Shown: positions 11,603-48,533 of the stretch, piece by piece
Position numbering within the stretch: the first letter of the stretch is position 1
Layout: each line of letters opens with the position of its first letter
Assembly: GCA_020723325.1 (NCBI GenBank)
Contig: DYJD01000020.1
Location: 62,001-126,000 of the forward strand
Length of the DNA stretch: 64,000 bases
Origin: Desulfosudis oleivorans
Lineage (GTDB): Bacteria > Desulfobacterota > Desulfobacteria > Desulfobacterales > SURF-7
Reading direction: 5' to 3'
Program-made: the position numbers and the translations under genes
The notes under the pieces: generated by a model
Databases searched by the model: none
The model's input: the letters and a program-made list of their open reading frames with translations, nothing else
What the model was told of the DNA's origin: nothing

Positions 11603-11608
11603 GAGCCG

Positions 11609-13144: not shown

Positions 13145-13154
13145 AAAGTAGATG

Positions 13155-13250: not shown

Positions 13251-13421
13251 ACGAGAACAAAAAAGGACCAGCCTCATTCCTTTTTTCCACCACACGCTGC
13301 ACTGAAGTTCACCAAGGACACGAAGTTCTCCGGCTGCTCCGAAGAAAGGAGCCATTTTAACTTCGTGCCCTCGTGTACTTCATGGTGAAAATCAAATCAA
13401 AATCAAGGTCTAATGCCTTTC

Positions 13422-14063: not shown

Positions 14064-14069
14064 GTTGAA

Positions 14070-14075
14070 CCTCCT
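14070..14075 (-). promoter_or_regulatory. Ribosome binding site that fixes a TTG start
   Basis: AGGAGG on the minus strand, six bases from the TTG at 14063. It makes the TTG far more likely than the upstream ATG at 14156. Confidence 0.7.
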
Positions 14076-14295
14076 GATGATTGATTGAAAGTTAAAATGA
14101 GACAAAAATGCCTGCCATGCAACCAACGAGTTTGACATTGTCAGTGCCGTTTTCATTAGCCCTATGGTCGCATTTGTAGAAGAAGAATGACCATACCAAA
14201 TATATCAGAACCGGACAAGCCTTCTGAACGGATCATGCCGGACAATTGCATGCAATTCACCCTGATGTATTAATCACTGACTCAATCTCAACAAA

Positions 14296-14976: not shown

Positions 14977-15022
14977 TATTGCATCATTTGGGGTTTAAAT
15001 TATTTCTTGGCCATCCCTCCAT

Positions 15023-15047
15023 GGTGGGAGCGGCTTCCAGCCGCGAT
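15023..15047 (+). repeat. R2 repeat copy
   Basis: GGTGGGAGCGGCTTCCAGCC then GCGAT, between the methyltransferase and ATPase genes. Confidence 0.75.
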
Positions 15048-15071
15048 AGGGCCGGACCTATTATGCGAGCA

Positions 15072-16802: not shown

Positions 16803-16845
16803 GGTGCTGTTTCCTTTTTGGGCATTCTTTCATCCGTTTTGGCCT

Positions 16846-17559: not shown

Positions 17560-17560
17560 A

Positions 17561-31636: not shown

Positions 31637-33001
31637 ATGGGAAATATTGATCAGACCAATGCGCAACTCTTGGTCGAAATCCAGGACCTCCAGAAAAGGC
31701 TCAACCAATTCGAGTTGATCTTCAATTCTGTCGGCAATACCATTTGGCTGCTCGATGCGCAGTTTCATATCCAGTATTCCAATCAAGCCGCTGAAGCCAT
31801 GTTCCAAAAGCCGGTGGTTGCAATGATCGGCAGGCATTGCTGGGAAATTGTCCATGGCACTGACCAGCCCATTCCCGGCTGCCCTGTGGTCCAAACATCC
31901 AAAACCGGAAAACGTGAATCCACCCAACTGCAAATAGGGCAGAAATGGTTTGAAGTAGTTGTGGACCCGATCTTTGAGCCGTCCGGTCAAATTACCGGCT
32001 ATACCCATATTGTCAGCAATATCACCCAGCGAAAACAAGCCGAGGAGGTCCTGCAGGCAAGCGAAAAACAATTGCGCGCTGTTTTGGAGGCGTCATCAGA
32101 AAGCGTTTTTCTCATGGATACGCAAGGCCGCTTGTTGATGGCCAATCAAATTACCGCCCAACGGCTGAAGACCGACCTGGAAACATTGAAAAAAGAAAAT
32201 TTATATAACTTTTTGCCGCCGGCTGTGGCAGAGAACCGCAGAAAACATATTCAGGATGTTATTGAAACCGGACAGCCCATCCGCTTCGAGGACGAACGTT
32301 TCGGCCGGACAATGCTGAATTCCGTTTACCCTATATTTGGAAAAGACAACCAGGTGACCCACCTGGCGGTTTACGGCATGGACATTACCGAGGGGAAAAA
32401 AAAGGAAGAGCATATCCGCGAGAATGCGGAACGCTACCGCAATATGTTTCAAAACAACCATGCCGTCCTGCTGGTGATCGATCCGGAAAACGGCCGGATC
32501 CTGGATGCCAATCCGGCCGCCTGCAAATATTACGGTTATGACCTGAAAACCATAAAGGCCAAAAAAATCCTGGACATCAACACCCTGACTCCGGAGCAGA
32601 TTTTTGAAGAAATGGCCCGGGCCAAGGCCGAAAAGCGCAATCATTTTTATTTTTATCATCGCCTGGCCAATGGAGAGGTCCGACCGGTTGAAGTTTACAG
32701 CGGCCCGATTGTAATCAAGGGCAAGCAGTTGCTGTATTCCATTGTTCATGACATCAGTGAACGCAGAAAAGCGGAAGAAGAGAAGGAAAGACTGATCCTT
32801 GAGCTGCGGGCGGCTTTTTCCAAAATTAGGGTTTTGAGCGGGATGTTGCCCATTTGTGCTTCCTGTAAAAAAATTCGCGATGACCAGGGGTACTGGCAGC
32901 AAATCGAATCCTATATCAAAGAACATTCGGAGGTTGAGTTCAGTCATGGTATTTGCCCGGGTTGCATTGAAAAACTCTACCCGGATCTTGACATCAAATA
33001 A
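31637..33001 (+). CDS. Multi-PAS sensor protein with C-terminal Cys motif
   Basis: 454 residues with three PAS domains (about 20-130, 145-255 and 265-385), each closed by a TQRKQAEEV/TEGKKKEE/SERRKAEEE helix. The C-terminus (about 395-450) has CASCKKIRDDQGYWQQIESY and CPGCIEKLYP, a Cys-rich tail common in PAS proteins of these bacteria. There is no kinase or output domain, so it likely works by protein contact with the hybrid kinase downstream. A TGGAGG site fixes the start. It leads a three-gene signalling operon. Confidence 0.85.
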   Translation: MGNIDQTNAQLLVEIQDLQKRLNQFELIFNSVGNTIWLLDAQFHIQYSNQAAEAMFQKPVVAMIGRHCWEIVHGTDQPIPGCPVVQTSKTGKRESTQLQIGQKWFEVVVDPIFEPSGQITGYTHIVSNITQRKQAEEVLQASEKQLRAVLEASSESVFLMDTQGRLLMANQITAQRLKTDLETLKKENLYNFLPPAVAENRRKHIQDVIETGQPIRFEDERFGRTMLNSVYPIFGKDNQVTHLAVYGMDITEGKKKEEHIRENAERYRNMFQNNHAVLLVIDPENGRILDANPAACKYYGYDLKTIKAKKILDINTLTPEQIFEEMARAKAEKRNHFYFYHRLANGEVRPVEVYSGPIVIKGKQLLYSIVHDISERRKAEEEKERLILELRAAFSKIRVLSGMLPICASCKKIRDDQGYWQQIESYIKEHSEVEFSHGICPGCIEKLYPDLDIK

Positions 33002-33015
33002 AAAGGAAAACCGAC

Positions 33016-34161
33016 ATGCGCATTGAACAAAAACAATGGACCCCTGAAGATGGTTGGAAAACGGAATGTGCGGATTCAGCCGGCCTCCCGGCCCAGTTGG
33101 TGTTCGTTTTCGGCAGTGGCCGCGCTGTCCAAAATCCGGTTCTATTTGGCGAAATCCGACGAACCTATCCCGGCGCGCTTATTTTTGGGTGCTCCACGGC
33201 CGGTGAGATTTGCGCCACCCGGGTGTCGGATGAGTCCTTGGTAACCACAGCCGTGCATTTTGAACACAGCCGCCTGGCCGGCGCCAAGACGGAAATAAAA
33301 AAAGCGGGCGACAGTTTCAGCGCCGGCGAGCAACTGGCCCGTTCCCTGGAAAAGGAAGGTTTGCGCCATGTCTTTGTGCTTTCCGACGGTCTGGGCGTCA
33401 ACGGCAGCGACCTGGTCAAAGGCCTCACCCAAAACCTGCCGCCGGATGTGGCCGTGACCGGCGGTCTATCAGCGGACGGCGATCGTTTCAGGCAAACCTT
33501 TGTCATCATGGATGCGCCGGGGGAAAGCGGCGCCATCGCCCTTGTCGGTTTTTACGGCCGAAAACTCAACATCGGTTATGGTTCCCTGGGGGGCTGGGAC
33601 TCCTTTGGTCCGGAACGTACCATCACCAAGTCCAAAGGCAATGTCTTGTTTGAGCTGGACGGCAAATCCGCCCTGGAGCTTTATAAGAAATATCTGGGCG
33701 AGCATGCCGCCGGACTGCCGGCCACCGGCTTGCTTTTCCCCTTGAGCATCCGCACCAAAGAAGGCGAACCCGGCCTGGTGCGCACGATTTTGTCCGTGGA
33801 TGAGACCGACCAGAGCATGACCTTTGCCGGCGACTTGCCCGAAGGCGCCTATGCCCGGCTGATGAAAGCCAATTTCAACCGCTTGATTGAAGGGGCGGCC
33901 GGCGCGGCCAAAACCAGTTGCCGAAGCCTCCTGACCGGCGCTCCTGAACTGGCCCTGCTCATCAGTTGTGTCGGGCGCAAAATGGTTCTGAAGCAGCGCG
34001 TGGAAGAGGAAGTGGAAGCCGTGCGGGATGTGGTGGGCGGACAAACGGTTCTCACGGGTTTTTATTCCTACGGCGAAATATCTCCCTTCATATCCGGCGC
34101 GGCTTGTGAACTGCACAACCAAACCATGACCATCACCACCCTATCGGAAAAATCCCCATGA
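33016..34161 (+). CDS. FIST N/C-domain sensory protein
   Basis: 381 residues. FIST_N block near the start (GALIFGCSTAGEI, residues about 51-63) and DVAVTGGLSADGDRF. The FIST_C part holds LYKKYLGEHAAGLPATGLLFPL, with TGFYSYGEI near the end. FIST proteins bind small molecules such as amino acids in signalling systems. The gene sits between the PAS protein (14-base gap) and the hybrid kinase (4-base overlap ATGA), which suggests it feeds a ligand signal to the kinase. Confidence 0.9.
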   Translation: MRIEQKQWTPEDGWKTECADSAGLPAQLVFVFGSGRAVQNPVLFGEIRRTYPGALIFGCSTAGEICATRVSDESLVTTAVHFEHSRLAGAKTEIKKAGDSFSAGEQLARSLEKEGLRHVFVLSDGLGVNGSDLVKGLTQNLPPDVAVTGGLSADGDRFRQTFVIMDAPGESGAIALVGFYGRKLNIGYGSLGGWDSFGPERTITKSKGNVLFELDGKSALELYKKYLGEHAAGLPATGLLFPLSIRTKEGEPGLVRTILSVDETDQSMTFAGDLPEGAYARLMKANFNRLIEGAAGAAKTSCRSLLTGAPELALLISCVGRKMVLKQRVEEEVEAVRDVVGGQTVLTGFYSYGEISPFISGAACELHNQTMTITTLSEKSP

Positions 34162-36272
34162 AAGACCTGCATGCATTATTGGTCAGGCAGCTCAAACGCC
34201 ATTTGGGCGACCCGGCTCTGCTTCCAAAAGTATGGAAAGGTTTTATCGAAACCGTCAACGATGCCTACCGGGAATTTGATGAGGATCGTTACATGTTGGA
34301 GCGCTCCCTGGAACTGAGCTCCCAGGAGTTGCTCCAGTCCAACTCGGAAATGCGGGCGATCATCAAGGCTTTTCCAGACCTGTTTCTGTGGATCGACCGG
34401 GAAGGGAGGATTCTCGACTGCAAGGAAGGCAGTTCCACCAACCTGTTCATTCCCGCCCACCAATTGGTAGGGAAGCGCATTCAAAACATTCCGGATAAAA
34501 CCATTGCCGAAAAGTTCCACCAGGCCATCCAATTGGTCCGGAAGGAACGCGCCATGTTCAGCCTGGAATACTCCCTCACCCTGAATGACAAGCAATATTA
34601 CTATGAGGCCCGGGTTTTACCGCTGCTGGAAGACCAATGCCTGTGCATCGTCCGCAACATCACTGAAAGACAAGAGGCCGAGGAGGCCCTCAAGCAGAGC
34701 GAGGAGCAGTTCAAAAAACTCTATGAGGAATCCAGAAAGGCGGAAGAAGTCTACCGCTCCCTGATCCATTCTTCCGCCGATGCCATAGTAATGTATGATT
34801 TGGAAGGCAATGTCAGATATCTCAGCCCGGCTTTTACCCAATTATTCGGCTGGGACCAGCCGGAATTGGAAGGGAAGAAAATCCCATTCATACCGGAATC
34901 CGAAAAGGAGGCCACCTTTTTTCTCATTACGGAAGTCGTGCACAAAGGCAAGCCCGTCCACGGCTTTGAGAGCCGGCGCCTTACCAAGGACGGCCGCATT
35001 CTGAATGTCAGTGTCAGTGCTTCCCGCTTTGACGATCATGCCGGCCGGCCCTCCGGAACCCTGGTCATCCTGCGGGACATCACCGAGAAAAAACGCCTGG
35101 AAGCCCATTTCCGCCAGACCCAGAAAATGGAATCCATCGGCACCCTGGCCGGCGGAATCGCCCACGATTTTAACAATCTGCTGTCCGCCATCATGGGCTA
35201 TGCGGAAATGTGCCTGGCCGAGGCCCCCAAGGGCGGCAAGATGGAAAGACGCTTGAGCCGGGTCATGCAGGCCAGTGAGCGCGCCAAGGATCTGGTCAAT
35301 CAAATCCTGACCTTCAGCCGGCAAAAGGAGCAGACCCGCAAACCCTTGCAGATCCGGCCCATTATCAAGGAGGCCCTGAAGCTGCTGCGCGCCTCCATTC
35401 CCTCCACCATCCGCTTTCAAATCGATATCACCGAAGATACCGGCGTCATTCTGGCGGATCCGACCCAGATCCATCAGGTGCTCATGAATTTATGCACCAA
35501 CGCGGCCCATGCCATGCAGGAAAAAGGCGGGACCCTGACTATCAGCATTACCGATACCGCCATTCCCAAGGAAAGCCTCTCGGTTCATGCGGATTTGGCA
35601 GCCGGCGAATACGTGAAACTGACCGTGTCCGATACCGGCCACGGCATGACCACGGATATATTGGAAAAAATTTTCGATCCCTATTTCACCACCAAAAAAC
35701 ACGGGGAGGGCACCGGCCTGGGGCTTTCCCTTGTGCACGGAATTGTCAAGAGCATGGACGGCGCCATCCGTGTAACCAGCACGCCGGCTCAAGGTTCGAC
35801 TTTTGAGGTATTCATTCCACGCCTGGAAAGCGACCGGGAGGATTCGCCACCCCCCACGGAAGACATTCTGCTCTTCGGCAACGAGACGATCCTGCTGGTG
35901 GATGATGAGGATTTTGTACTGGATATGACCCGGGAAATGCTGGAAAGTCTCGGCTATACAGTGGTCCCGCGGGCCAGCAGCCTGGAGGCCCTGCATGCCT
36001 TTCGCGCCAATCCCAAACGCTTTGACCTGGTCATTTCCGATCAAATGATGCCCAATATGACCGGTCAGGAATTGGCCGCCAATATCCACGCCTTGAATCC
36101 ACGTATTCCCTTCATCCTTTGTACCGGTTTCAGCACGCCCATCACCGAGGAAAAAGCCCGCAATTCCGGTGTGACGGCCTTTGTCTACAAACCTGTTCTG
36201 AAGCAGAACCTGTCCGCCGCCATCCGGAGGGTTTTGGATGTTGCCGACAGCAGTCGGGACAATAGCATATAA
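34158..36272 (+). CDS. Hybrid histidine kinase (PAS-PAS-HisKA-HATPase-REC)
   Basis: 704 residues. Two PAS domains (about 65-175 and 195-310), HisKA with GIAHDFNNLLSAIMGY (His336), HATPase with NLCTNAAHAM, SDTGHGM and GTGLGLSLVHGIV, and a C-terminal receiver with LVISDQMMP (Asp628) and LLVDDEDF. Soluble, with no transmembrane helix, so it senses an internal or protein-borne signal. No DNA-binding partner lies nearby, so phosphotransfer must go to a distant regulator. It overlaps the FIST gene by four bases. Confidence 0.93.
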   Translation: MKDLHALLVRQLKRHLGDPALLPKVWKGFIETVNDAYREFDEDRYMLERSLELSSQELLQSNSEMRAIIKAFPDLFLWIDREGRILDCKEGSSTNLFIPAHQLVGKRIQNIPDKTIAEKFHQAIQLVRKERAMFSLEYSLTLNDKQYYYEARVLPLLEDQCLCIVRNITERQEAEEALKQSEEQFKKLYEESRKAEEVYRSLIHSSADAIVMYDLEGNVRYLSPAFTQLFGWDQPELEGKKIPFIPESEKEATFFLITEVVHKGKPVHGFESRRLTKDGRILNVSVSASRFDDHAGRPSGTLVILRDITEKKRLEAHFRQTQKMESIGTLAGGIAHDFNNLLSAIMGYAEMCLAEAPKGGKMERRLSRVMQASERAKDLVNQILTFSRQKEQTRKPLQIRPIIKEALKLLRASIPSTIRFQIDITEDTGVILADPTQIHQVLMNLCTNAAHAMQEKGGTLTISITDTAIPKESLSVHADLAAGEYVKLTVSDTGHGMTTDILEKIFDPYFTTKKHGEGTGLGLSLVHGIVKSMDGAIRVTSTPAQGSTFEVFIPRLESDREDSPPPTEDILLFGNETILLVDDEDFVLDMTREMLESLGYTVVPRASSLEALHAFRANPKRFDLVISDQMMPNMTGQELAANIHALNPRIPFILCTGFSTPITEEKARNSGVTAFVYKPVLKQNLSAAIRRVLDVADSSRDNSI

Positions 36273-36402
36273 ATATATTCAATTTCAATTGACACCGCTC
36301 CGGATTTTGGGCATACTTTCGGGCACACAAAAAGCGTTCCTAATCGTTTCCCTAAGCAACAAGCCTTTCCTGTTTTTTTACCCCACATCATGGAGAATTC
36401 CT

Positions 36403-36927
36403 ATGGAAAAAAAAGACAAAGTCAAAGCCGAAGAAGTAAAGGACCAGAAGGAAGAACAAACCGAAGAAAAACTCAATCCCGATGATATCGTTAAAAAGCA
36501 TGTGATCGGGGCCATGGCCGTGGGTCTGGTGCCCCTGCCCGTGGTGGACTTGATGGCTTTGACCGGGGTGCAATTGAACATGTTGCGCAAGCTCACCAAG
36601 TCCTATAATGTGCCCTTTCTGCAGGACAAGGTGAAGAATATTCTGGCCACATTGATCGGCGGGGGCCTGCCCGTGGCTGTATCGGGCATTTTCACCAGTC
36701 TTGTGAAAAGCATTCCGGTCATCGGGCAAACCACCGGAGCCTTGGTCATGCCGGCATTATCCGGTGCTTCCACTTATGCGGTGGGCAAGGTGTTTATCCA
36801 GCACTTCGAGTCCGGCGGAACCTTTTTGAATTTCAACCCGGAAAAGGTCAAGGACTATTATGAGGCCATGTTTAAAGAAGGGCAGCAGGTTGTGTCCAAT
36901 TTAAAAACCAAGGAAGAGTCCAAATAA
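36403..36927 (+). CDS. YcjF-like (DUF697) membrane protein
   Basis: The start is the ATG at 36403 (MEKKDKVKAEE) behind TGGAGA. The frame upstream to 36238 runs into the kinase gene and is not used. 174 residues: a charged, coiled N-terminus, then a DUF697-type core (GAMAVGLVPLPVVDLMALTG; LRKLTKSYNVPFLQDKVKNI) with two hydrophobic stretches (about residues 30-50 and 85-115). It is followed after nine bases by an SPFH gene. YcjF/SPFH pairs suggest membrane-domain organisation. It is the first gene of the pLGIC operon. Confidence 0.8.
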   Translation: MEKKDKVKAEEVKDQKEEQTEEKLNPDDIVKKHVIGAMAVGLVPLPVVDLMALTGVQLNMLRKLTKSYNVPFLQDKVKNILATLIGGGLPVAVSGIFTSLVKSIPVIGQTTGALVMPALSGASTYAVGKVFIQHFESGGTFLNFNPEKVKDYYEAMFKEGQQVVSNLKTKEESK

Positions 36928-36936: not shown

Positions 36937-37812
36937 ATGATGAATAAAATTCGAGAAAAATTATATCGCAATCTTCCGGCGTTCATCATACCCACCATCC
37001 TTTTTGTATTTATATGCATTTACTTGTTCAATCGGATATTCATCATCATCCATGCCGGCGAGGCCGGGGTCATGTATCGGCTGTTCTTCGGCGGTACGGT
37101 GGTGGATAAGGTCTACGCTGAAGGATTCTATCTGAACTGGCCCTGGGACACGATGAATATCTACAATGTCAGGGTTCAGCAAATCGCCCATGAATTCGAT
37201 GTGTTGACCAAAAACGGCCTGAAGATCAAGTTGCATATCTCCATTCGTTATTATCCGGAGTACAAGCTGCTGGGGGTGTTGCACCAGAAGGTCGGACCCG
37301 ATTATGCCAACGTGGTGGTCATTCCGGAAATCGAGCAGGTATTGCGCCTGATCATCGGTCAGATGGATGCCGAGGAGGTGTATACCACCGGGCGGTCCAT
37401 TATAGAGAAATCCCTGAACGACGCCACGGAGCAGATCGCCCAGCGTTTTATCATCGTGGACAATGTGATTGTTAAGAAAACGACCCTGCCGGAACAGGTG
37501 GAGAAGGCCATCCAAAATAAGATCGAAGAAAAGCACATCGCCGATGCCCATACTTACAAAGTCGAAAGGGAAAAGAAGGAGGCGGAGCGCAAGCGCATTG
37601 AAGCCAACATGATGAAGGAGTACAATGATATCGTCAACTCCTCCATTACGGAAAAGATTTTAAAATGGGAAGGGATTCAAGCCACCCTGGAACTCAGCAA
37701 GTCCCAGAACTCAAAGGTGGTCATCATCGGCAGCGGCAAGGAAGGCTTTCCCGTGATCGGCAATTTCGTTCTCAATGAAGGCGATGAAAAAAGTCCCATC
37801 CTTAACAAGTAA
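36937..37812 (+). CDS. SPFH/prohibitin-like membrane protein
   Basis: 291 residues. One N-terminal transmembrane helix (about 15-38) and a band-7 domain (about 40-190: AGEAGVMYRLFFGGTVVDKV, GLKIKLHISIRYYPEYKLLG). A coiled tail rich in Glu and Lys (about 195-250, VEREKKEAERKRIEANMMKE) should oligomerise. SPFH proteins build large rings that organise membrane domains and proteases. It overlaps the next gene by 38 bases, indicating tight coupling with the binding-protein fusion. Confidence 0.9.
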   Translation: MMNKIREKLYRNLPAFIIPTILFVFICIYLFNRIFIIIHAGEAGVMYRLFFGGTVVDKVYAEGFYLNWPWDTMNIYNVRVQQIAHEFDVLTKNGLKIKLHISIRYYPEYKLLGVLHQKVGPDYANVVVIPEIEQVLRLIIGQMDAEEVYTTGRSIIEKSLNDATEQIAQRFIIVDNVIVKKTTLPEQVEKAIQNKIEEKHIADAHTYKVEREKKEAERKRIEANMMKEYNDIVNSSITEKILKWEGIQATLELSKSQNSKVVIIGSGKEGFPVIGNFVLNEGDEKSPILNK

Positions 37813-40549
37813 ACAGGGCCTTTTGCGGCATGCCAAGGGGTGGGCGGCGATTGCCCTGTTTTTCGTGACGGTATTCAGCGCCTGCACGGCGGATGACAGC
37901 CGGCAAAGCCGGCGTTCCAGGCGGCTGGCCGACCAGAAGGACGACATTGTCATTGCCTGTGTGGATTCCTCTTCAGCCCCGAGTTTTTTCAAAGAAGGCG
38001 TAGCCATGGCCGTGGAGGAAATCAACCTGCGCGGCGGCGTGCTGGATCGCAAGCTCAAAATGCGTTTTTTTGATGATGAAGGCGATGAAAGCAAGGGCGG
38101 ACAGGTGGCCCGCGCCATAGCGGATGACGACAACATGGTTGCCGTGATTGGCCACCGCTATTCCAATGTGGCCATCCCGGCCTCCATCACCTATGAGCAA
38201 AACGGCATCCTGTTTATTTCACCCGGAGCCACCCATCCCAGTCTGACACGCTACAGCAAGGATTTCACCTTTCGCAACATCCCCTCGGATGATGAGACCG
38301 GCCGGCAGATCGCGGATTTCCTCAGCCGCAAGCAATACAAGCACATGGTTATTTTTTATCAGCGGGATTTTGAGGGCAAGCGCCTGGCTGAAATCCTGAA
38401 CGAACTGGCAGTGGAAAAGGGGATCAACATTGTTTCCAAACGTTCTTTTTTCGAGTGGCAGGACGATTTCAAGACAGAGCTTTCCATTGTCAAAAAAGAA
38501 CTCCGGTTTGACGCGGTGTTTGTGGCCGGCAGTCTTCCGGCTTCCGCCATCCTGATCAAGCAGGCCCGGGACATGGGGCTTTCCGCGCCCATCATCGGCG
38601 GGTCCGGCCTGGACTCCCCCATGCTGATTTCCGAAGCCGGCCGGGCCGCGGAAGGCACCGTGGTTTCCACGGTGTTCAACCCCAAAAGCACGGAAAAGAA
38701 CACCCGGGATTTCATCAATCGATTTGAGGAAAAATTCGGATTCCAGCCCGACACCTGGGCGGCCCAGGGCTATGATGCGGTGGTCCTGCTGGAGCACGTG
38801 ATGGAATCCAGTTCCTCCACGGTTCCCATCATTCTTTCCTCCACCCTGAAATTTCTGGAAAGATGGAACGGCGTGACCGGCTCTTATTCCTTTACCCGGG
38901 ACGGTAATATCGTCGGCAAGACCATTTTTTTCAAGGAAGTGAAAAACGGCAAATTTGATTTTCTGAAAACGGAAAAGGAAAGCGAGGTCGACCCCTATAT
39001 TTATGTGGATGAGTTCACCTTGCGCCTCCCCCTGGAGGGGGCCGTGCCCACCATTGATCCGGGCTTTTGCTATGAATCAACTTCCATTGAAGTGGTTGAG
39101 CAATTGTTCATGGGATTGACCTCTTTTGATCCGGTGAGCTATAACGCCGTGCCGGAGCTGGCAAGCAGTTGGGTCGCGGCCGACAACGGCTTGACCTATC
39201 GTTTCAATTTGCGCCGGAATGCGCTCTGGACCGACGGCCGGCCGGTGACGGCCCACGACGTGGTCTTTGCCGTTCAGCGCAATGCCGGGCCGGCGACCAA
39301 GGCCCCCAATGCCCAGATGCTGTATCTTGTGAAAAACGCCAAGGCCTTTAACCAGGGTGAGCTTAAGGACCCGGCCCAGATCGGCGTGCGCGCCCTGGAT
39401 GATCATACCGTGGAATTCACCCTGGAAAATCCCGCGGCCTTTTTTCCCAGTATTGCCGGCGTGCCCATATTCCGTCCGCTGCCGCGGCAAAGCCTTGAGA
39501 AATACGGTCCCAAATGGACCGAGCCGGAAAATATCGTCACCAACGGTTCCTATAAGGTGGCCCTCTGGAAAAAGGATATGGTCATGGTGCTCAAGAAGAA
39601 CCCGGACTATTTTGCGGCGGATAAGGTGTCCATACCGGAAGTGCGCTATCTCATCATTCCCCGGAGTTCCCTGGGCTTTGCCATGTACAAGAACAATGAG
39701 CTGGATGTCATGGGCAGCAGTTATTTGCGCCTGCCCATGGGCAACCTGGCCCGCATTCAAGAAGATCCCGCCTTGAAACCGGAATATCATCGCGAGCCCC
39801 AGTCCTGCACCTATGCCTATGCCTTCAACATCAAAAAGCCGCCGGTGGATAATCCCAAGGTGCGCATGGCCATCGCCGCCGCAATACCCAAGCGTCTGAT
39901 CATTGAGATCATCAGCCGGGGCGGCGAGGAAACAGCCAACACCTATACCCCCTGGCCCTTGTTCGGCGCCGTTGACCCGGCCGAAGGCGTGGGCATCGGC
40001 TTCAACCCCACCAAGGCCCGGCAATGGCTGAGCGAGGCCGGCTATCCCAACGGCGAAAAATTTCCGGAACTGGTGCTGCTGTATAATACTTCCGAAACCC
40101 ATAAAAAAATCGCCGAGGCTGTCCAGGCCGCCCTGAAGCACAATCTGAACATCCAACTGCGGCTGGTGGAAAACGAATGGGACCAGTTCATGGCCAGCAT
40201 CACCCGGCCCGGGGAATTTCATCTGTTCCGGGCCGGGTATTGCAGCGATTATCCGGATGCCAACAATTGGCTCAATGATTTGTTCCATCCCTCCCGGCCC
40301 ATGATGTATACCGGCCTGGACAACCCGGAGTTGGCGGCGGTGTTGGACCAATCCCAGGCCGAGGGCGATCTGGAAAAGCGCAAGGCTTTGTTCAAGCGCG
40401 CCGAGCGCATCCTGTGCGAGGAGGAGACGGCCCTGGTTCCGATCTATTTTGAAAAAGCCCATTGCCTGGTAAAGCCGCGGGTAAAGGGCTGGTATCATAT
40501 GGCCATGGGCGGGCAGCATATCCGCAACTGGTATTTTGAGGAGAAATAG
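37775..40549 (+). CDS. Lipoprotein fusing a LivJ-type and an OppA-type solute-binding domain
   Basis: 924 residues. Start at 37775 or 37784; neither has a good ribosome site, so translation is probably coupled to the SPFH gene. Signal with lipobox VTVFSAC (Cys37). Residues about 57-395 form a type I periplasmic binding domain of the LivJ/Peripla_BP_6 kind (VAMAVEEINLRGGVLDRKLK, AVIGHRYSNVAIPA, WAAQGYDAVV). Residues about 410-915 form a type II SBP_bac_5 (OppA/DppA) domain (YESTSIEVVEQLFMGLTSFD, YRFNLRRNALWTDGRPVTAH, GSYKVALWKKD). No ABC permease or ATPase gene is present. The two domains belong to different binding-protein classes. It probably presents or detects amino-acid or peptide ligands for the channels that follow. 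Confidence 0.88.
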   Translation: MKAMKKVPSLTSKQGLLRHAKGWAAIALFFVTVFSACTADDSRQSRRSRRLADQKDDIVIACVDSSSAPSFFKEGVAMAVEEINLRGGVLDRKLKMRFFDDEGDESKGGQVARAIADDDNMVAVIGHRYSNVAIPASITYEQNGILFISPGATHPSLTRYSKDFTFRNIPSDDETGRQIADFLSRKQYKHMVIFYQRDFEGKRLAEILNELAVEKGINIVSKRSFFEWQDDFKTELSIVKKELRFDAVFVAGSLPASAILIKQARDMGLSAPIIGGSGLDSPMLISEAGRAAEGTVVSTVFNPKSTEKNTRDFINRFEEKFGFQPDTWAAQGYDAVVLLEHVMESSSSTVPIILSSTLKFLERWNGVTGSYSFTRDGNIVGKTIFFKEVKNGKFDFLKTEKESEVDPYIYVDEFTLRLPLEGAVPTIDPGFCYESTSIEVVEQLFMGLTSFDPVSYNAVPELASSWVAADNGLTYRFNLRRNALWTDGRPVTAHDVVFAVQRNAGPATKAPNAQMLYLVKNAKAFNQGELKDPAQIGVRALDDHTVEFTLENPAAFFPSIAGVPIFRPLPRQSLEKYGPKWTEPENIVTNGSYKVALWKKDMVMVLKKNPDYFAADKVSIPEVRYLIIPRSSLGFAMYKNNELDVMGSSYLRLPMGNLARIQEDPALKPEYHREPQSCTYAYAFNIKKPPVDNPKVRMAIAAAIPKRLIIEIISRGGEETANTYTPWPLFGAVDPAEGVGIGFNPTKARQWLSEAGYPNGEKFPELVLLYNTSETHKKIAEAVQAALKHNLNIQLRLVENEWDQFMASITRPGEFHLFRAGYCSDYPDANNWLNDLFHPSRPMMYTGLDNPELAAVLDQSQAEGDLEKRKALFKRAERILCEEETALVPIYFEKAHCLVKPRVKGWYHMAMGGQHIRNWYFEEK

Positions 40550-40555: not shown

Positions 40556-42751
40556 ATGAAGATCAGACTCGCCATGATGGTTTCCCTGGTGCTCGGCAGC
40601 ATCATTCTCCTCCCGGCCCTGGCCTTTCGGATGTTTCCCATGCAGCCCGAACCCCATTATATCGCCGTGGTGGGGCCCTTGAGCGGGGAAGACCGCGTCA
40701 GCGGCTTGGCCATGCAGAAGGGCATCCAACTGTGTCTGGAACGGGCCAAACGGCAAGGCCGGTTGAAAAATAAAAGGATCGAGCTGGTATATTTCAATGA
40801 CCAGAACGATCGCCGCACGGCCTTGAAAATCGCTGCCCAGATCACCAAGGATGACCGCATCTTGTGTGTGTTGGGGCATTTTTACAGCACCAGCGCCGAA
40901 GTGGCCGGCGCCATGTACCGCCGCAGCGGCATCCCGGCCATCACGGCTTCCGCCGGCGGCGACAGCCTGACCACGGTGAACGATTGGTATTTCCGGACCA
41001 TCCCGGACAATCGCTCCATGACCCGCTTCACCGTGAGTTATATCCGCAAGGTCTTGAAGCAGAACCGGGTCAGCCTGATCTTTGACAAAGGCGATTACGG
41101 CGCGGCCCTGGCCGGTGATTTCATGGAAGCGGCCCGGGAATTGAACATGGAGATCCTCTATCAATGGAGTTTTGACCAGGAGGCCAAGGAAAGCCAGCGG
41201 CAGTTGAACGGGATCATCACGGAATTGCGCACCGTCAAGGAGCCCGGGGTGCTCTATTTCGCCACCCAGGCGCCCGAGGCGGCGCAAATTCTTTCCGCGG
41301 TCAGGTATCAGGGCACGGATTATACGGTGGTGGGACCGGACACCTTTTGCAACCGGGCGTTTATCGAGCTTTTCAACCGCTATCCCGGCGAGCGCCGAGC
41401 CAAAGGCTATTTCACCGATGGTATCTATGCCGTTGCCCCGTTCCTGCCGGAAATGGGCGGCAAGACAACCCATGATTTCATCCATGAGTACCAAGGGCTT
41501 TACGGCGAGAAGCCGTCCTGGGTGGCCTGCTGCTATTACGACGCCATGCTGATGGCCATCAACGCCATTGAAAAAAGCGATCTTGAGGCCGGTTTCGGTA
41601 TTCAGAAAATCAGGCGGACCCTGCGGGACCGCCTGGCCGGGTATACGAGCGCGGACATTGCCGTGGACGGGGTCACGGGCAAACTCTATTTTGACCGCAA
41701 CCGCAACATGAAAAGGCCGCTGCATCTGGGGTATTATCAAAAACAGGAATTTATTCCGTTTTTTTCCCAATACACCTCCCTGGAAGGGGATCAGCAGCCC
41801 CAGAAAAAGCGCATCAAGGAGAAGATCGCGGACAAGGTGGTGTTGATCGACAACCAGTTTCACACGGATACCCAGATTGTCTATGTGGGCTTTGACATCA
41901 ATTCCATCGGCAATATGGACATGGAAAAGCAGACCTTCACCCTGGATTTTTATCTCTGGTTCCGTTTTCAGGGGGCCTTTGAGGAGGAGAAGATGATCTT
42001 CCCGGATGCCTTAACCCCCGTGCGCCTGGAGAATCCCATCATCCGGGAGGCGGGCCCGGACAGCACCGTCCAGACCTATCACATCAAGGCGGATTTCAAA
42101 GGGGATTTCAATCCGCGCGACTACCCCTTTGATGTGGAAACCCTGCGCATCCGTTTTTACGATAAAAGCCGCTCCAGAAACAAAATGATCTACCTGCCCG
42201 ACATCCTGCAGCCGGCCTCTGGGGCTTTGCCGGACCAGGAACCGCTGCCTTCAACAGCAGGCTGGCAAGTGGCCGGCGTGTCCTGTTATGAGGCCATCAA
42301 GGATATTGCCTTTTCCGAGAAGGTCTCCATTCCCTATTCCCAATTCAATGTGGCAGTGGCCCTCCAGCGAACCGACCGGATGGGTTCGGCTTTAAAACTG
42401 CTGCTGCCCCTTGGGGCGCTTACGGCCCTGTTGTTTTTTTCCCATTATCTGCCGCCGGATTCCCTGTCCCGGCGCGGTCTGATTTATGCCGGCATTGCTG
42501 CCGCCGCCGGCATGTATCACCTGCATCTACACCAGCGCTTTCCAGGCAAAGGGCTGGATATCGAGCATGTTTATTATGTGGTTTATGGCCTGCTGGTCTG
42601 GGCCGCCGCCATTTCCGCCATCGGGTATGGAGCCGGCCGAATGGGCCTGGGCCCGCAGAAGATCCAACGCCTGCAACAATTGGGTAAAATCGGCTATCCG
42701 ATTATTTTACTGATCGGCTGTTTATCGGTATTTTTCATTGCAAACGGGTGA
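40556..42751 (+). CDS. Pentameric ligand-gated ion channel homologue with N-terminal LivJ-type binding domain
   Basis: 731 residues. An N-terminal signal or anchor (1-25), then a LivJ-type binding domain (about 34-400: IAVVGPLSGEDRVSGLAMQK, VLGHFYSTSAEVAGAMYRRS). Residues about 438-605 align by eye with the extracellular domain of prokaryotic pLGICs such as GLIC, including DFNPRDYPFDVETLRIRF, which covers the Pro-loop (YPFD at 523-526). Four helices follow: M1 about 610-632, M2 639-660, M3 668-692 and M4 710-729 (GKIGYPIILLIGCLSVFF, like the GLIC C-terminus). The M2 start has SRRGLIYAG, with basic residues where GLIC has a Glu. Seven bases after the fusion lipoprotein gene. Likely a ligand-gated channel or a non-conducting receptor. 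Confidence 0.85.
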   Translation: MKIRLAMMVSLVLGSIILLPALAFRMFPMQPEPHYIAVVGPLSGEDRVSGLAMQKGIQLCLERAKRQGRLKNKRIELVYFNDQNDRRTALKIAAQITKDDRILCVLGHFYSTSAEVAGAMYRRSGIPAITASAGGDSLTTVNDWYFRTIPDNRSMTRFTVSYIRKVLKQNRVSLIFDKGDYGAALAGDFMEAARELNMEILYQWSFDQEAKESQRQLNGIITELRTVKEPGVLYFATQAPEAAQILSAVRYQGTDYTVVGPDTFCNRAFIELFNRYPGERRAKGYFTDGIYAVAPFLPEMGGKTTHDFIHEYQGLYGEKPSWVACCYYDAMLMAINAIEKSDLEAGFGIQKIRRTLRDRLAGYTSADIAVDGVTGKLYFDRNRNMKRPLHLGYYQKQEFIPFFSQYTSLEGDQQPQKKRIKEKIADKVVLIDNQFHTDTQIVYVGFDINSIGNMDMEKQTFTLDFYLWFRFQGAFEEEKMIFPDALTPVRLENPIIREAGPDSTVQTYHIKADFKGDFNPRDYPFDVETLRIRFYDKSRSRNKMIYLPDILQPASGALPDQEPLPSTAGWQVAGVSCYEAIKDIAFSEKVSIPYSQFNVAVALQRTDRMGSALKLLLPLGALTALLFFSHYLPPDSLSRRGLIYAGIAAAAGMYHLHLHQRFPGKGLDIEHVYYVVYGLLVWAAAISAIGYGAGRMGLGPQKIQRLQQLGKIGYPIILLIGCLSVFFIANG

Positions 42752-42762
42752 GGGCAGCCGTT

Positions 42763-44979
42763 ATGAAACAGAAGTTCATCAAATATGTATATGTTGCCGT
42801 CATCCTGGCCTTCCCTGTCCTGGCGGGTTTTATTTTTTTGCATTCCTACGGCCGCTTTCTTTTTTTCGTAACGGATTTTTTCAGCAAAAGCGCTAAGATT
42901 CAAATCGCCCTGGTGCTGCCCCAGGAACCGGCCACGCGGCAAAACATCGTGAATGCCGTGGACCTGTTCCTGGACGGCATCCAACACGCCGTCAAGGGCA
43001 AAAAGGTGCAGGTCCAATATTACCACGACCGCCGCAATGAACAGAACGCCGAAACCACCGCCCTGCGGATTATCAATGAAAGCAATTCATTGCTTGTGAT
43101 CGGGCATTACACCAACCTGGAATCCGCCGCCGCCGGAACGATGTACAAAAAAAATGAAATCCCGGCCATCACCGCCTCCGCCGGCCTGGAATCCATCACC
43201 GCCGATAATCCCTGGTATTATCGGGTGATCCCCAATGTGCGGGTCCAGGCCGTGCTCACGGCCGGTTATATTGCCCGGAATCTGAAACAAAAAGGCGTCA
43301 ACGTTCTGTATGAGAATGATGAGTATGGAATGGTGCTGATGGAGAATTTTGTCACCACGGCCGAGCGCAGAGGCCTTACCATTAAGAATAAAATCAATGT
43401 GGGTGACTTGAATATGGCTGACGAAACCGCGCTGGCAGCCCTGATGGCCAAATTGGAACCCGCGGATATCCTGTATCTGGCCGTGCATGCCGGCCGGGGC
43501 GCCGGGCTGGTGACCGCCGCTAAAAACAAGGCGGCCGGTTTCACGATTTTCGGCCCGGAGGAATTTGCCTCGGAAAGCTTTGTGCGCGCCGTGCAAAGCG
43601 GCTTGGACAAGCAGAAAGGCGCCGGCTATGATTTGAACGAGGTGTTTTGCGCTTCACCATATATGAGCGCCATTGCCAACGACAGGGGCCATTGGTTTGA
43701 AAAGGAGTTTCTCCGTCGTTTTCATCAAAAGCCCACCTGGGAAGCGGCCTGCTATTATGATGCCCTGCAGATGGCCACGGCCGCCATCGCCAAAAGTGAG
43801 ATCCAGAGCGCGGAGTATGTAAAGGAAAATCGCCGCAAAGTCCGGGAGGCCATGGATGGTTATTTCAGTCCCGGCAATGCCGTCAAAGGCCTGGTCCAGG
43901 ATCTTTATTTCGACAGCCGCCGTGATGTCATCCGGCCCTATGCCATGGCCGGGTATTCCGGGTGGAAATTGATTTCAGCCCCGGTTCAATATCAGACCCT
44001 GACCCAGGCAGACCGGGAAATAAGGACCCTGTTTGAGGACATCCTTCGCGGCGAGGCCGTCAACATGGATGGGCGGGTGCTGCAGAATATCCACGTGGTC
44101 TACACCTGGGTGGATGAAATCCAGGTTGAGGAAATGGATTCCATGGCCGGCCGCTGCCGGCTCGGTTTTGATCTGAATGTTCGTTACGTCAACGGTTTTG
44201 AATTCGACCCGCGGGCCTTGGATTTCGGCGACGGGGCCGAGGCGATCGCCCTTGGGGAGCCGGTTGCCGAGGAAATCGGCGAAGAAATGACCGCGCGCAA
44301 ATACCGGGTCAGGGGCGGTTTTAAAATGCCCGCGGACCACCGGGCCTTTCCCTTTGACCGCCGGATCCTGGCCATCCGCCTGATGAACAAGGCCGCCTTG
44401 GCCAATCGGGTGATTTATCTGCCGGATGAATTAAAAATGGCTGCCAAGGACTTCACCTTGATCAAGGGCCGGGTGCTGCCGGAAGCATTGCAGGGCTGGA
44501 AAACGGCTTCCCAGGCCTGTTTCGAGGATTTTGCCACCAAGGAATCCAGTCTGGGGCTCGGCCGCTTGGCGGAAGCCGGCTATAAGATCAACCGTTCCCG
44601 TTTCAATGCCGAAGTTCACCTGGTCCGCAGATTCCGCGGGGTTGCCGGTTTTTTTCTGCCGGTGGTTCTCCTGCTGGCGGGTCTGTACCTGGTTTGTCTG
44701 GAGCCGCCGAAAAAGGCCGGTTTTTATTCAGCGGTTTTTGCCGCGCTATTCCTGGGAAACGGGCTGTGCCATTGGTTTCTCTTGCGGACCTTCCCCTGCG
44801 ATTATATGCTGGGGGCGGAATATCTGGTTTTTGCGGTTTACCTGCTGCTGCTTGTGGGCCTGTTTATGTCGAGACTCGGCCCGCCGGCCCTGGCAAAGGC
44901 CAGGAAAATGGGAAGGATCGCCTGTCCCCTGGCCGGACTCATCCTTTTTATCTTCTGGTATGGAGGGAGTTATTTATAA
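42763..44979 (+). CDS. Second pLGIC homologue with N-terminal LivJ-type binding domain
   Basis: The start is the ATG at 42763 behind GTGAGGG; a GTG at 42748 overlaps the previous stop and is possible. 738 residues. The architecture matches the preceding protein: an N-terminal transmembrane anchor (about 8-28), a LivJ-type domain (about 43-400: SLLVIGHYTNLESAAAGTMY, PAITASAG), a pLGIC extracellular domain (about 440-620) with FPFDRRILAIRL in place of YPFDVETLRIRF, then M1 to M4 (M4 RIACPLAGLILFIFWYGGS). M2 begins KKAGFYSAVF. The two are clearly paralogous but quite diverged, so they could form a hetero-oligomer. Confidence 0.83.
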   Translation: MKQKFIKYVYVAVILAFPVLAGFIFLHSYGRFLFFVTDFFSKSAKIQIALVLPQEPATRQNIVNAVDLFLDGIQHAVKGKKVQVQYYHDRRNEQNAETTALRIINESNSLLVIGHYTNLESAAAGTMYKKNEIPAITASAGLESITADNPWYYRVIPNVRVQAVLTAGYIARNLKQKGVNVLYENDEYGMVLMENFVTTAERRGLTIKNKINVGDLNMADETALAALMAKLEPADILYLAVHAGRGAGLVTAAKNKAAGFTIFGPEEFASESFVRAVQSGLDKQKGAGYDLNEVFCASPYMSAIANDRGHWFEKEFLRRFHQKPTWEAACYYDALQMATAAIAKSEIQSAEYVKENRRKVREAMDGYFSPGNAVKGLVQDLYFDSRRDVIRPYAMAGYSGWKLISAPVQYQTLTQADREIRTLFEDILRGEAVNMDGRVLQNIHVVYTWVDEIQVEEMDSMAGRCRLGFDLNVRYVNGFEFDPRALDFGDGAEAIALGEPVAEEIGEEMTARKYRVRGGFKMPADHRAFPFDRRILAIRLMNKAALANRVIYLPDELKMAAKDFTLIKGRVLPEALQGWKTASQACFEDFATKESSLGLGRLAEAGYKINRSRFNAEVHLVRRFRGVAGFFLPVVLLLAGLYLVCLEPPKKAGFYSAVFAALFLGNGLCHWFLLRTFPCDYMLGAEYLVFAVYLLLLVGLFMSRLGPPALAKARKMGRIACPLAGLILFIFWYGGSYL

Positions 44980-45158
44980 TGCCGGTTCTGCTCATCTTAT
45001 ACGTATGCTTGAGTCTGGTCATCGGGGTTTTAGGCAAAAATCGAAAATTCGGCTTCTGGGGGTATTTCTTCGGTTCCCTGCTGCTGTCGCCGGTGATTGG
45101 ATTGCTGCTGGTGATCGCATCGGATTCCAGGAATTCCAAGGCCGGGGAACAGGGCTGA
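44979..45158 (+). CDS. Small two-helix membrane protein
   Basis: 59 residues starting at the ATG at 44979, which overlaps the preceding stop by one base (TAATG) and has GGAGGGAG upstream. Two hydrophobic segments (MPVLLILYVCLSLVIGVLG and FFGSLLLSPVIGLLLVIAS) are separated by the basic loop KNRKFGFWGY. It closes the channel operon, six bases before the convergent ABC exporter gene. It may be a channel-associated subunit. The same general shape occurs in many small bacterial membrane proteins. Confidence 0.65.
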   Translation: MPVLLILYVCLSLVIGVLGKNRKFGFWGYFFGSLLLSPVIGLLLVIASDSRNSKAGEQG

Positions 45159-45164: not shown

Positions 45165-48100
45165 CTAAGCCGTAGGGCTGCATTGGCCGTATTCCAGTTT
45201 AACCACCCGATCGGCAACCTGGAAAAAGCGGTCGTCATGGGTGACCACGATGACGGTTTTACCGTGGGCTTTGAATTCCGGCAGCAGGACGGCATAGAAG
45301 TACTGCCGGAAATGGGGATCCTGATCCGCGGCCCATTCATCAAAGATATAAATGGGCCTGTCTTCCAGCATGGCAATGACCATGGCCAGGCGCTTTTTTT
45401 GCCCGGTGGACAGATCCAGGGTGCTGAATTTTCCCTGCCGGAAAGACACGATTTTGTCCAATTGAAACCGCCCCAGCAAATCGTTGACCCGCTCCGCCGG
45501 AATTGCTTCCAGGCCGTACAGGGCGTTGAATAAGTAAAAGTCGGAAAAGATCGCGGAAAAAAGCTCCTGGAGCGTATGCACATCCACCTCCCGGCCGTTG
45601 TATTGGACCCGGCCGGAATCCATGGGATATAAACCGGTCATTATTTTCAAAAGGGTGGATTTGCCGCTGCCGTTGCCGCCGGTGATGAAAACAAGCTCGC
45701 CGGCGGAAAATCCAAGACTGACAGGCCCCAGTTGAAAGGAACGGCCGTCGCCGGTCTTGTACCGGAAGGCGCAATCCTGAAAATCAAGGGTTTTATATTC
45801 ACCGGCTTTTATTAAGTCGGCGGCCGGCGACGGCCCGGCTTCCGGCTCCAGCTTACGCATGCGCTCTTCAAAGCCATACAATTGCTGTAAGGACATATAG
45901 GCGGTATGGAATTGGGAATAGCGGTCGATGATCTGGTTCAGGGGAATGGTGACCACCATGGCCACGAGCACGGGCAGAACCCCGGAAGTGGAGGGCAGCA
46001 GCGGCAGCAGCAAGGTCAGGGAGAGTAGCATGGCTTCCCAGAGGGAATAGGCCAGGGTGTAGTTGTTGGTGTAATACCGGGTGAAGCGCAGTTTCAGGTC
46101 CCGCAGGGCCGCGGCATTGCAACGCAGGTTGTTTTCATAAAAAGCATCGCTTTTGCGGTTGTTGACCCGCAGTTCCCGAAAGCCCAGCAGCAGGTCGTTC
46201 AGGCCGGTCAGGAAACGCTGTTCCTGGTGGCGCAACTCCTCAAAGGCTTTTATCAGAAGAGCATGGTTGTATACGTAAAAAGCCGCACCCACGGCCAGAA
46301 GACAGGCGATCAACCCAAAGGCCGGCAGGGACAGAACGGCGATATACGCAAAGGTCATCAAGGCCCGGCCGGCCCCCAGCAGGCTCATTAAAACCGAAAA
46401 GGAAGTATCGGCAATGGCCTTGATGTCGTTGGTCAGTCTGGCGTAAACACCCATGGGCCCGATCTGCTCCAGAACTTGCAGGCTGGTTTTGCGCACCCGT
46501 TCCAATACATTGACGCGGAATTCGCTGATGCGGGTCTCCACGGATTGGTAGAAATGCCGGTTGAGCCGCCGGAAACTCACCATGAAAAGCAGAATCAGCA
46601 GAACAAACTGGGCAAATAGAAGGTTCCTGGATTGATGGGCCGCGGGGTTGGCGGCGGACAGCAGCACGATAAAAATGAAAACCAGGGCAAAGGAAACCAG
46701 GGTGATGAGTAAGAGGAGTCTTTTGATGAGCGGTCCGTGGGAATGCATGAAGCGGTTGAGTTGTTCCAGCAGCCCCATGGGCCGCGGGGTTTTTGCCGGT
46801 CTTTTCCTTTTGCGCGGCATGGCGTGAAGGCCGCGGGGTTTTTGCCGGTCCCCGGCGTCCCGGACTGCGTGGGCCCCCGGGGAAGGGGCTGCTTCCGCTT
46901 CGGCAGGGCCGGCAACGGCAGGAAGCGTGCGGTCCGTGATTTTGCCGAATTCCAGCCGGATGATCTGGTCGGCGGTATGAAAATAATGGTCGTCATGGGT
47001 GACGGCAATGATGAGCTTGCCTTTGCGCTTCAGTTCCGGAAGGATGGTTTCATAAAAACGGCGGCGGAAATACGGGTCCTGATCCGCGGCCCATTCATCG
47101 AATACATAGACCGGCTTGTCCTCCAGCAAGGCCAGGGCCAGGGCCAGCCGCTTTTTCTGGCCGGTGGACAGGTTCAAGGTGCTGAAACGGCCGTCGCGAA
47201 AGCGCACTTTGTGGCTGAGTTGCAGTTCTTTGAGCAGGCTATTGATCCGCTCTTCCGGCACGTCTTCCAGGCCGTAGGCGGCGTCAAAGAGATAGGGGTC
47301 ATTAAAAATGGTTGCGAACAAATAGCGGTGCTCGGACATCACCAGGGGCCGGCCGTCCACCAGAATCTTGCCGGCCGAAGGCCGATATAGGCCGGTGATG
47401 ATCTTCATGAGGGTGGATTTGCCGCTGCCGTTGCCGCCCACGATGAACAGGATCTCCCCGGCTTGTACCCGCAGCGCGTCGATTTCCACGCCGAAGCCCG
47501 ACTCATTGCCCGCGGCGGGATAGGCAAAATGGATGTTTTCCAGGGTGATGGAATCAAGCGTCTTGACGGTCTCCTGGGCGGTGGTGTGGAGCATTTGCTC
47601 CTTGTCCTGCAGGGCTGTTTTGCCGAACAACTGTTGCAGCCTTTCCAGGGCGGCTTTGCCTTCCAAAATGGAAGGAACCTGGGAAAGGATCATGATATCC
47701 GTTTTCAGCATGTACAGCATCATGATGACGATTTTCAGGGTGGTTTCCCGGGACAGGGCCGGAAAAAAAAGAAAAACACCGCAAGCGATCAACACAAAAA
47801 GGGATATGGAGTAAAACAACATCAGCTCGGAAGCATAGAAGCTGCTTTTCAGGCGCAGGGCCTTGATGCGCTCGGTGAGGGGCAGGAAGTGGTTTTGGAA
47901 GAGGTCGGCGCTTTTGGCGCGGTTCAATTTCAGTTCCTTGAAGCCGTATAAAAAGGCCTCGAAGGCGGCAAACAGGTTGCGCTGCTCCTGCAATTCCTCC
48001 ATGACCACGGTTTTGATGATTTTTTGAAAGGCCTCCCGCAATAGATACTGGAACAGCCGCCACACCAGAATGATCCAGCCGAAGGTGGGGGAAAGCAACA

Positions 48101-48533
48101 GGAAGATATACAGCCAGCCGATGATCAGGGTGATGTTATGCTCCAGGGCGTCCATGGATTTGGCCGCTGCCTGGCTGATGGTCCGGGCATTGACGATGCC
48201 CATATGAATATCGGCGCGCTTGCGTTTTTCAAACCCGGCCAGGTCTTCATGCCGCAAAGTGTTGGCCATGGCAAGAACCTGGTCTTCCAGATTTTGCTCC
48301 ACCATGTGGGCGGTTTTTTTCTGGGACAGGCGTTTGGCTATCAGGAAGATCAGACTGACCACAGGCAGCAAAAGGAGGTAGAAGAGATAGCGCTGCGGAT
48401 CGAAAATGTGAATGGCCGCATTGGGGTAAAGAATCAGGAGGGCGCCGCCGGCACCGCCGCCCAGGGCCGAATACAGCAAAATGACATAGGCGTCCTTGAC
48501 GGAAATATGGCGTATATAGGAAAGAAAATCCAT
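45165..48533 (-). CDS. Tandem-fused PvdE/SyrD-type ABC exporter
   Basis: 1122 residues containing two complete half-transporters. Each has about six transmembrane helices then an ATPase: GGNGSGKST near residues 364 and 950, signature NLSTGQKKRLALALALLEDK and DLSTGQKKRLAMVIAMLEDR, and FDEWAADQDP followed by VTHDD. FDEWAADQDP is typical of cyclic-peptide exporters such as PvdE and SyrD. The halves are joined by a basic, Pro-rich linker (about 536-590). PvdE-like exporters normally are half-transporters that dimerise, so this is a covalent dimer with differing halves. It lies ten bases after the sulfotransferase gene and is the likely exporter of the cluster's product. Confidence 0.9.
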   Translation of the reverse strand: MDFLSYIRHISVKDAYVILLYSALGGGAGGALLILYPNAAIHIFDPQRYLFYLLLLPVVSLIFLIAKRLSQKKTAHMVEQNLEDQVLAMANTLRHEDLAGFEKRKRADIHMGIVNARTISQAAAKSMDALEHNITLIIGWLYIFLLLSPTFGWIILVWRLFQYLLREAFQKIIKTVVMEELQEQRNLFAAFEAFLYGFKELKLNRAKSADLFQNHFLPLTERIKALRLKSSFYASELMLFYSISLFVLIACGVFLFFPALSRETTLKIVIMMLYMLKTDIMILSQVPSILEGKAALERLQQLFGKTALQDKEQMLHTTAQETVKTLDSITLENIHFAYPAAGNESGFGVEIDALRVQAGEILFIVGGNGSGKSTLMKIITGLYRPSAGKILVDGRPLVMSEHRYLFATIFNDPYLFDAAYGLEDVPEERINSLLKELQLSHKVRFRDGRFSTLNLSTGQKKRLALALALLEDKPVYVFDEWAADQDPYFRRRFYETILPELKRKGKLIIAVTHDDHYFHTADQIIRLEFGKITDRTLPAVAGPAEAEAAPSPGAHAVRDAGDRQKPRGLHAMPRKRKRPAKTPRPMGLLEQLNRFMHSHGPLIKRLLLLITLVSFALVFIFIVLLSAANPAAHQSRNLLFAQFVLLILLFMVSFRRLNRHFYQSVETRISEFRVNVLERVRKTSLQVLEQIGPMGVYARLTNDIKAIADTSFSVLMSLLGAGRALMTFAYIAVLSLPAFGLIACLLAVGAAFYVYNHALLIKAFEELRHQEQRFLTGLNDLLLGFRELRVNNRKSDAFYENNLRCNAAALRDLKLRFTRYYTNNYTLAYSLWEAMLLSLTLLLPLLPSTSGVLPVLVAMVVTIPLNQIIDRYSQFHTAYMSLQQLYGFEERMRKLEPEAGPSPAADLIKAGEYKTLDFQDCAFRYKTGDGRSFQLGPVSLGFSAGELVFITGGNGSGKSTLLKIMTGLYPMDSGRVQYNGREVDVHTLQELFSAIFSDFYLFNALYGLEAIPAERVNDLLGRFQLDKIVSFRQGKFSTLDLSTGQKKRLAMVIAMLEDRPIYIFDEWAADQDPHFRQYFYAVLLPEFKAHGKTVIVVTHDDRFFQVADRVVKLEYGQCSPTA

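Follow-up and report, generated by a model that had tools for sequence, protein, structure and literature searches.

The window analyzed here, a stretch of 64,000 nucleotides from Desulfosudis oleivorans, carries two adjacent genes, termed W1 and W2, each of which joins a periplasmic binding domain to the core of a pentameric ligand-gated ion channel (pLGIC). The question raised by this locus is whether the two proteins are ordinary ligand-gated channels, independent receptors that happen to be neighbors, or two different subunits of one receptor. According to a 2016 survey, a biological role was known for no pLGIC of single-celled organisms (PMC4795631), and bacterial pLGICs have been taken as homopentamers (PMC549065). 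A conserved operon that joins two co-inherited subunits to binding proteins and a stomatin-type protein points to a specific role that can be tested, and makes the pair a candidate for a heteromer in bacteria.

Domain architecture of W1 and W2

In both proteins, a type I periplasmic binding protein domain (PBP-I) immediately precedes the pLGIC core within a single chain, and the extracellular domain (ECD) of the core is followed by four C-terminal helices, including a GLIC-like M4. The features are as follows.

40556..42751, + strand: W1 (subunit a), 731 aa with an ATG start; PBP-I, pLGIC ECD and four helices
40658..41710, + strand: W1 PBP-I domain, residues 35-385; Peripla_BP_6 at 1.3e-31; model resembling LivJ/LivK structures
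41825..42370, + strand: W1 pLGIC ECD, residues 424-605; A6 profile against GLIC; Pro-loop YPFD, pre-M1 R605
42371..42748, + strand: W1 transmembrane domain M1-M4, residues 606-731; DSSP of the model and M2 table
42748..44979, + strand: W2 (subunit b), 743 aa from GTG; PBP-I, pLGIC ECD and four helices
42940..43860, + strand: W2 PBP-I domain, residues 65-371; Peripla_BP_6 at 4.7e-21
44044..44631, + strand: W2 pLGIC ECD; A6 family alignment/profile and predicted model
44632..44976, + strand: W2 transmembrane domain M1-M4; predicted model and M2 table

The initial annotation, which described two tandem proteins with LivJ-type PBP-I domains and pLGIC cores, was borne out with regard to the domains, the Pro-loops (DYPFD in W1 and AFPFD in W2) and the helices. 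W1 starts 6 bases after the stop codon of the preceding gene (W0), and the W1 stop and W2 start overlap by 4 bases in head-to-tail order. An alternative W2 start is present at the ATG of position 42763 besides the GTG of 42748, and the choice between them alters the extent of this overlap. The PBP pockets of the two proteins differ, with GHFYSTS/ITASAGGD in W1 and GHYTNLES/ITASAGLE in W2. At the motif for α-amino-acid binding (Ser...SAT-type), both read ITASAG, several relatives read ITxSAT, and the PBP-I domain of W0 retains ISPGAT.

Homology to pLGICs

Regarding the profile searches proposed with the initial annotation, Peripla_BP_6 was significant in both proteins, whereas the Pfam scan of W1 and W2 gave no Neur_chan domain at E<=1 and a PF02931 search across the genome gave no match; the channel part was recovered by a family profile only. 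This profile, A6, was made from an alignment of 36 channel domains gathered by a genome-contig scan and local profile work. It matched GLIC and other pLGICs at E-values of 1e-21 to 1e-23 over the entire ECD and transmembrane domain (profile 19-317, GLIC 18-314), in agreement with the likeness to GLIC that had been read by eye along the core as far as M4. Among relatives in the phylum are proteins without a fusion and others with a fused Cache domain; one of these, at 1.9e-12 from W1, clears Pfam's own PF02931 threshold.

The AlphaFold models were confident, with a pLDDT of 88.6 for full-length W1 and 86.9 for the channel part of W2. The W2 channel model resembles chains of GLIC, the GABA-A receptor, GlyR and nAChR (Foldseek E 1.5e-14), with a Z of ~20 over ~275 residues by VIA against those chains, so that the expected fold of the pLGIC extracellular and transmembrane domains is found in the prediction. 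As the Foldseek list of full-length W1 was filled by PBPs, the channel fold of W1 rests on the profile and on the secondary structure of its model, in which the order of strands and helices is the same as in W2 (a β-sandwich ECD, then four helices). The Pro-loop proline (YPFD in W1, FPFD in W2) is the sole invariant column of A6, and the proline of the β6-β7 loop is the only absolutely conserved residue of pLGICs (PMC4795631). The Pro-loop aspartate and the pre-M1 arginine are also kept (PFD and R605 in W1, PFD and R627/R628 in W2), as is the M1 proline. Because of the A6 match to GLIC, the confident models and the similarity of the W2 model to known pLGICs, the membership of W1 and W2 in this superfamily, judged by sequence and predicted fold, is secure and far beyond chance.

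A conserved gene cluster

The operon partners of W1 and W2, and the signs that these are two distinct subunits, were absent from the initial annotation. The neighboring genes are as follows.

36238..36927, + strand: DUF697 membrane protein (PF05128, 2e-11); a recurrent neighbor with homologues in several related loci
36937..37812, + strand: SPFH/Band_7 membrane protein of the stomatin/HflK type (PF01145, 5.6e-25); its gene overlaps that of W0
37775..40549, + strand: W0, a predicted lipoprotein with PBP-I (LivJ-type) and PBP-II (OppA-type) domains in a single chain
44979..45158, + strand: predicted two-helix membrane protein of 59 aa, its start overlapping the W2 stop (TAATG)
45165..48533, - strand: fused double ABC exporter of the cyclic-peptide exporter type (TIGR01194, 3.7e-179), convergent with W2

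W0 matches Peripla_BP_6 (2.3e-38), SBP_bac_5 (5.6e-78) and an OppA model (3.3e-82), and a lipobox-like VFSAC was seen by eye near its start. The 59-aa protein has no Pfam match, and the same open reading frame occupies this position in the closest relative, locus L095. Upstream of the cluster, at 31637-36272 of the window, genes for PAS, FIST and hybrid histidine kinase proteins lie on the same strand, and the kinase gene overlaps the DUF697 gene.

A channel profile search of 389 genomes of the same order gave 59 with a match; 35 further stretches were mapped, and six repeats of earlier loci were excluded from the counts. The cluster conserved in Desulfobacterales comprises an SPFH gene, a gene for a PBP-I and OppA-like lipoprotein, and a PBP-I-pLGIC gene or gene pair. 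Across the non-duplicate loci, the SPFH gene is directly upstream, on the same strand, of 21 of 24 genes for PBP-I+PBP-II lipoproteins, and a PBP-I-pLGIC gene is directly downstream, again on the same strand, of 21 of the 24. In Beggiatoaceae and their relatives, the fusion gene often follows a PBP-II gene that stands alone, in place of the lipoprotein gene. L019 has two PBP-I+PBP-II lipoprotein genes (3686-6451 and 11104-13890) flanking one pLGIC pair, and the first pLGIC gene of L016 (5409-6997) and L023 (8634-10948) is split or truncated, which may reflect pseudogenes or assembly errors.

The TIGR01194-type exporter was confirmed beside the cluster in the window and in L016, L019 (a fragment), L024 and L031. 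An ABC homologue was found in the locus in 11 cases, and a fused one is present in L095; some flanks are cut by contig ends. The exporter is often close to the cluster, and in some loci it was not found. In L031, NRPS genes with C-A-T modules (10925-19524) immediately follow the cluster in the same orientation, and none was found beside the other clusters examined. The cluster as a whole was rejected as an NRPS gene cluster: the NRPS matches of the window genome lie on another contig, the L024 genome has none, and among the clusters examined only that of L031 has them alongside.

Because both the PBP-I and the OppA-type domains come from families of importers, and the genome has an OppC-type permease near another SBP_bac_5 gene (contig C110), W1 and W2 could be regarded as accessory binding proteins for amino acid or peptide import, with the membrane part as a mere anchor. 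This is very improbable. The genes scanned at the cluster included no permease of an importer, and the ABC protein linked to it is an exporter by type. Moreover, the pLGIC ECD is conserved together with its coupling residues, and the PBP-I/PBP-II lipoprotein is tied to pLGIC genes instead of permeases.

Two co-inherited paralogues

The tandem pairs of 20 Desulfobacterota loci were compared, giving 190 genome pairs, and proteins in the same position were more similar than proteins in cross position in 138 of the 190 (permutation p = 0.0009). The count is 133 of 136 without L031, L078 and L082, exclusions that were chosen after the result had been seen; L078 is a recent duplicate, and the pairs of L031 and L082 are off the a/b scheme. 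In view of these three, a strict a/b split across all loci is not supported. On a tree built from 48 proteins, 5 changes of the position label are needed as compared with 13.6 in shuffles, and none of 500 shuffles was as low. The nearest relative of W1 is the first gene of L095 and that of W2 is the second. The duplication looks older than the split of the Desulfococcaceae-type and Electrothrix loci, although the deep a/b branches of the tree are weakly supported.

Gene gaps in the tandem pairs are short or overlapping in many loci. It is stated in one report (PMC10666635) that adjacent or overlapping gene pairs often encode heteromeric complexes. The co-inherited, position-specific lineages fit W1/W2-type genes as old paralogues kept together and as candidate subunits of one complex. 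The differences between the PBP pockets, and an identity of just 31% between the channel parts of W1 and W2, would also suit two independent homopentameric receptors for different ligands, placed side by side by chance. Such an origin is improbable in view of both paralogue lineages staying in tandem over many genera, often with overlapping genes. Single pLGIC genes occur in the operons of L098, L105, L108, L110 and L111, so that two subunits are dispensable in some loci.

The pore helix M2

With numbering anchored on P23′, the M2 helix of W1 has R0′, L2′, G6′, A9′, M13′ and H15′, a hydrophobic or small lining, and that of W2 has Y0′, A2′, A6′, L9′, N11′, L13′ and H15′. The combination of a basic 0′ with Leu/Phe at 9′, which is common but not universal, is divided between them: W1 has R0′ but A9′, and W2 has L9′ but Y0′. 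The polar 2′/6′ lining of the classical conducting pore is missing from both (L/G in W1, A/A in W2), a feature of which superfamily membership is independent. The acid at -1′/-2′ that forms a cation-type filter is also missing (S/R in W1 and G/F in W2 at -2′/-1′), and among the 20 sequences of each type, only 3 of a and 1 of b carry such an acid. Among the operonic pairs, 2′ is polar in 15-25% and 6′ in 10-30% of the sequences, and M2 is the least conserved segment, with a mean identity of 22-26% as compared with 36-40% for the ECD. The M2 of the pairs is not random in sequence, as the basic 0′ and the polar 15′ are kept and 20′ is partly kept.

This pattern is not general to the fusions. In Beggiatoaceae and in alphaproteobacterial and Chloroflexota fusions, M2 is conserved no less than the ECD (identities of 54-61% and 52-56%), and several stand-alone fusions of the same order keep N/S2′, T6′ and L9′, with N2′ in an M2 of the RMNLGVTALLT type. 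As M2 is better conserved in pLGIC genes that occur singly in the operon (identity 0.40), the relaxation is mainly a trait of pairs. W1 and W2 belong to the more diverged members, which counts against reading them as an altered pore of two subunits.

The nonpolar 2′/6′ positions and the poorly conserved M2 make ordinary ion conduction by the pair class doubtful. Somewhat less than an even chance is nevertheless given to a conventional function, in which W1 and W2 would form ligand-gated ion channels, as homo- or heteropentamers, that open once an amino acid is bound in the PBP-I heads. The full pLGIC core with the Pro-loop P/D, pre-M1 Arg and M1 Pro, L9′ of W2, R0′ of W1 and the normal-looking channels of the stand-alone fusions all agree with such a function; the 2′/6′ residues of both proteins, A9′ of W1 and the low conservation of M2 in the paired class disagree with it. 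Thus, of the channel reading put forward initially, the complete core stands, and the working pore is in doubt.

The same sensor on MscS pores

Many of the channel-profile matches in the order stop after the ECD, in frames of ~960-1190 codons. All seven such frames that were scanned (L071-L077) encode PBP-I, ECD and MscS, to which a C-terminal cyclic-nucleotide-binding domain is added in two cases, and, judged by frame length, many more PBP-I-ECD-MscS proteins may be present in the order. A protein of 1132 aa at L108:3604 has PBP-I, a pLGIC-type ECD and MscS as well. In alignment with W1, the MscS fusions show no conservation at the column that holds the invariant proline of the Pro-loop, as expected if the loop serves the pLGIC membrane domain. 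A profile of the MscS-fusion ECD alone gave no match in a search against the PDB; therefore, the kinship of this domain to pLGICs is based on its match to the A6 profile and on how it aligns with W1.

The gating logic of a PBP-I+ECD unit on MscS pores counts in favor of a two-subunit receptor, and the placement of this sensor on pores equally suits ordinary channels. The MscS fusions suggest that the Cys-loop-type ECD is a portable transducer able to drive unrelated pores, a property that bears on the assembly of neurotransmitter receptors.

Proposed mechanism

The reading preferred here, held at about even probability, is that W1 and W2 are two different subunits of one inner-membrane receptor of pLGIC fold, with output via a non-classical pore or membrane partners. 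The receptor would be a pentamer of mixed subunits. A periplasmic ligand, presumably an amino acid, a peptide or a peptide-like compound, would be captured by the OppA-type and LivJ-type domains of W0 and/or directly by the PBP-I heads of W1 and W2. Closure of the heads, or putative docking of W0, would then act on the Cys-loop-type ECD and through it on the helices. Given the relaxed pore lining of the operonic class, ordinary ion-channel activity of the complex would be less likely than a report of the ligand by an altered pore or by partners in the membrane, such as the SPFH protein and the peptide exporter. Stomatin-type SPFH proteins modulate channels, and the SPFH protein may do so for W1/W2 here. 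The linked exporter suggests that the sensed compound is peptide-like. More tentatively, and at less than even probability, such a heteromeric pLGIC-fold receptor without classical conduction would be widespread in sediment sulfate reducers, where it would sense peptides in concert with a binding lipoprotein of two domains, an SPFH protein of the stomatin type and a peptide exporter; in sister proteins, the sensor would sit on MscS pores.

Comparison with known systems

The arrangement had been regarded as undescribed at first; in fact, PBP-I-pLGIC fusions were reported by Tasneem et al. in 2004 in Magnetospirillum and Bradyrhizobium, with operonic or adjacent PBP-II genes, and a role as homopentameric chemoreceptors was proposed (PMC549065). 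The fusion itself is thereby ruled out as a novelty. It is distributed over Desulfobacterota, Beggiatoaceae, Rhodospirillales and other Alphaproteobacteria, cyanobacteria and Chloroflexota. Among other proteins, those of L007 and L009 (~730 aa) combine dCache domains with a divergent pLGIC core, and L042, L044 and L045, from Thaumarchaeota, actinobacterial and Mycolicibacterium records, have related pLGIC domains with no PBP-I detected. What looks new in Desulfobacterales is the conserved cluster, the co-kept paralogues, the altered pore helix and the MscS-fused sensor; searches of the open-access literature gave no account of such an operon, of heteromeric pLGICs in bacteria or of fusions of the PBP-ECD-MscS kind.

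The proteins of Tasneem et al. share the N-terminal PBP-I on a complete ECD and four-helix core, and PBP-II neighbors were already noted for them. Here, in contrast to the homopentamers of that paper, two old tandem paralogues have a relaxed M2, a lipoprotein unites PBP-II with a second PBP-I, and an SPFH gene and a peptide exporter are linked. GLIC, the proton-gated channel of Gloeobacter, is alike in the whole-core profile, the fold, the Pro-loop, the M1 proline and the polar 11′/15′ positions; it has no fused head and ~20 more ECD residues than the W1/W2 family. The pore of GLIC is lined by T2′/S6′. DeCLIC is a deltaproteobacterial pLGIC that also has extra N-terminal domains, and these do differ from the PBP-I heads of W1 and W2, as initially noted: its NTD1 and NTD2 have been likened to calcium-binding regulatory domains (PMC12664993). 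The MscS-family channels of L071-L077 have PBP-I and a related ECD above a membrane pore, and differ by the MscS β-domain, the occasional cNMP-binding domain and the unconserved Pro-loop proline. By analogy only, NMDA and other ionotropic glutamate receptors have extracellular PBP-I and PBP-II in the same order as W0; unlike these receptors, W0 has no channel, and the membrane domains of W1 and W2 are of the pLGIC type.
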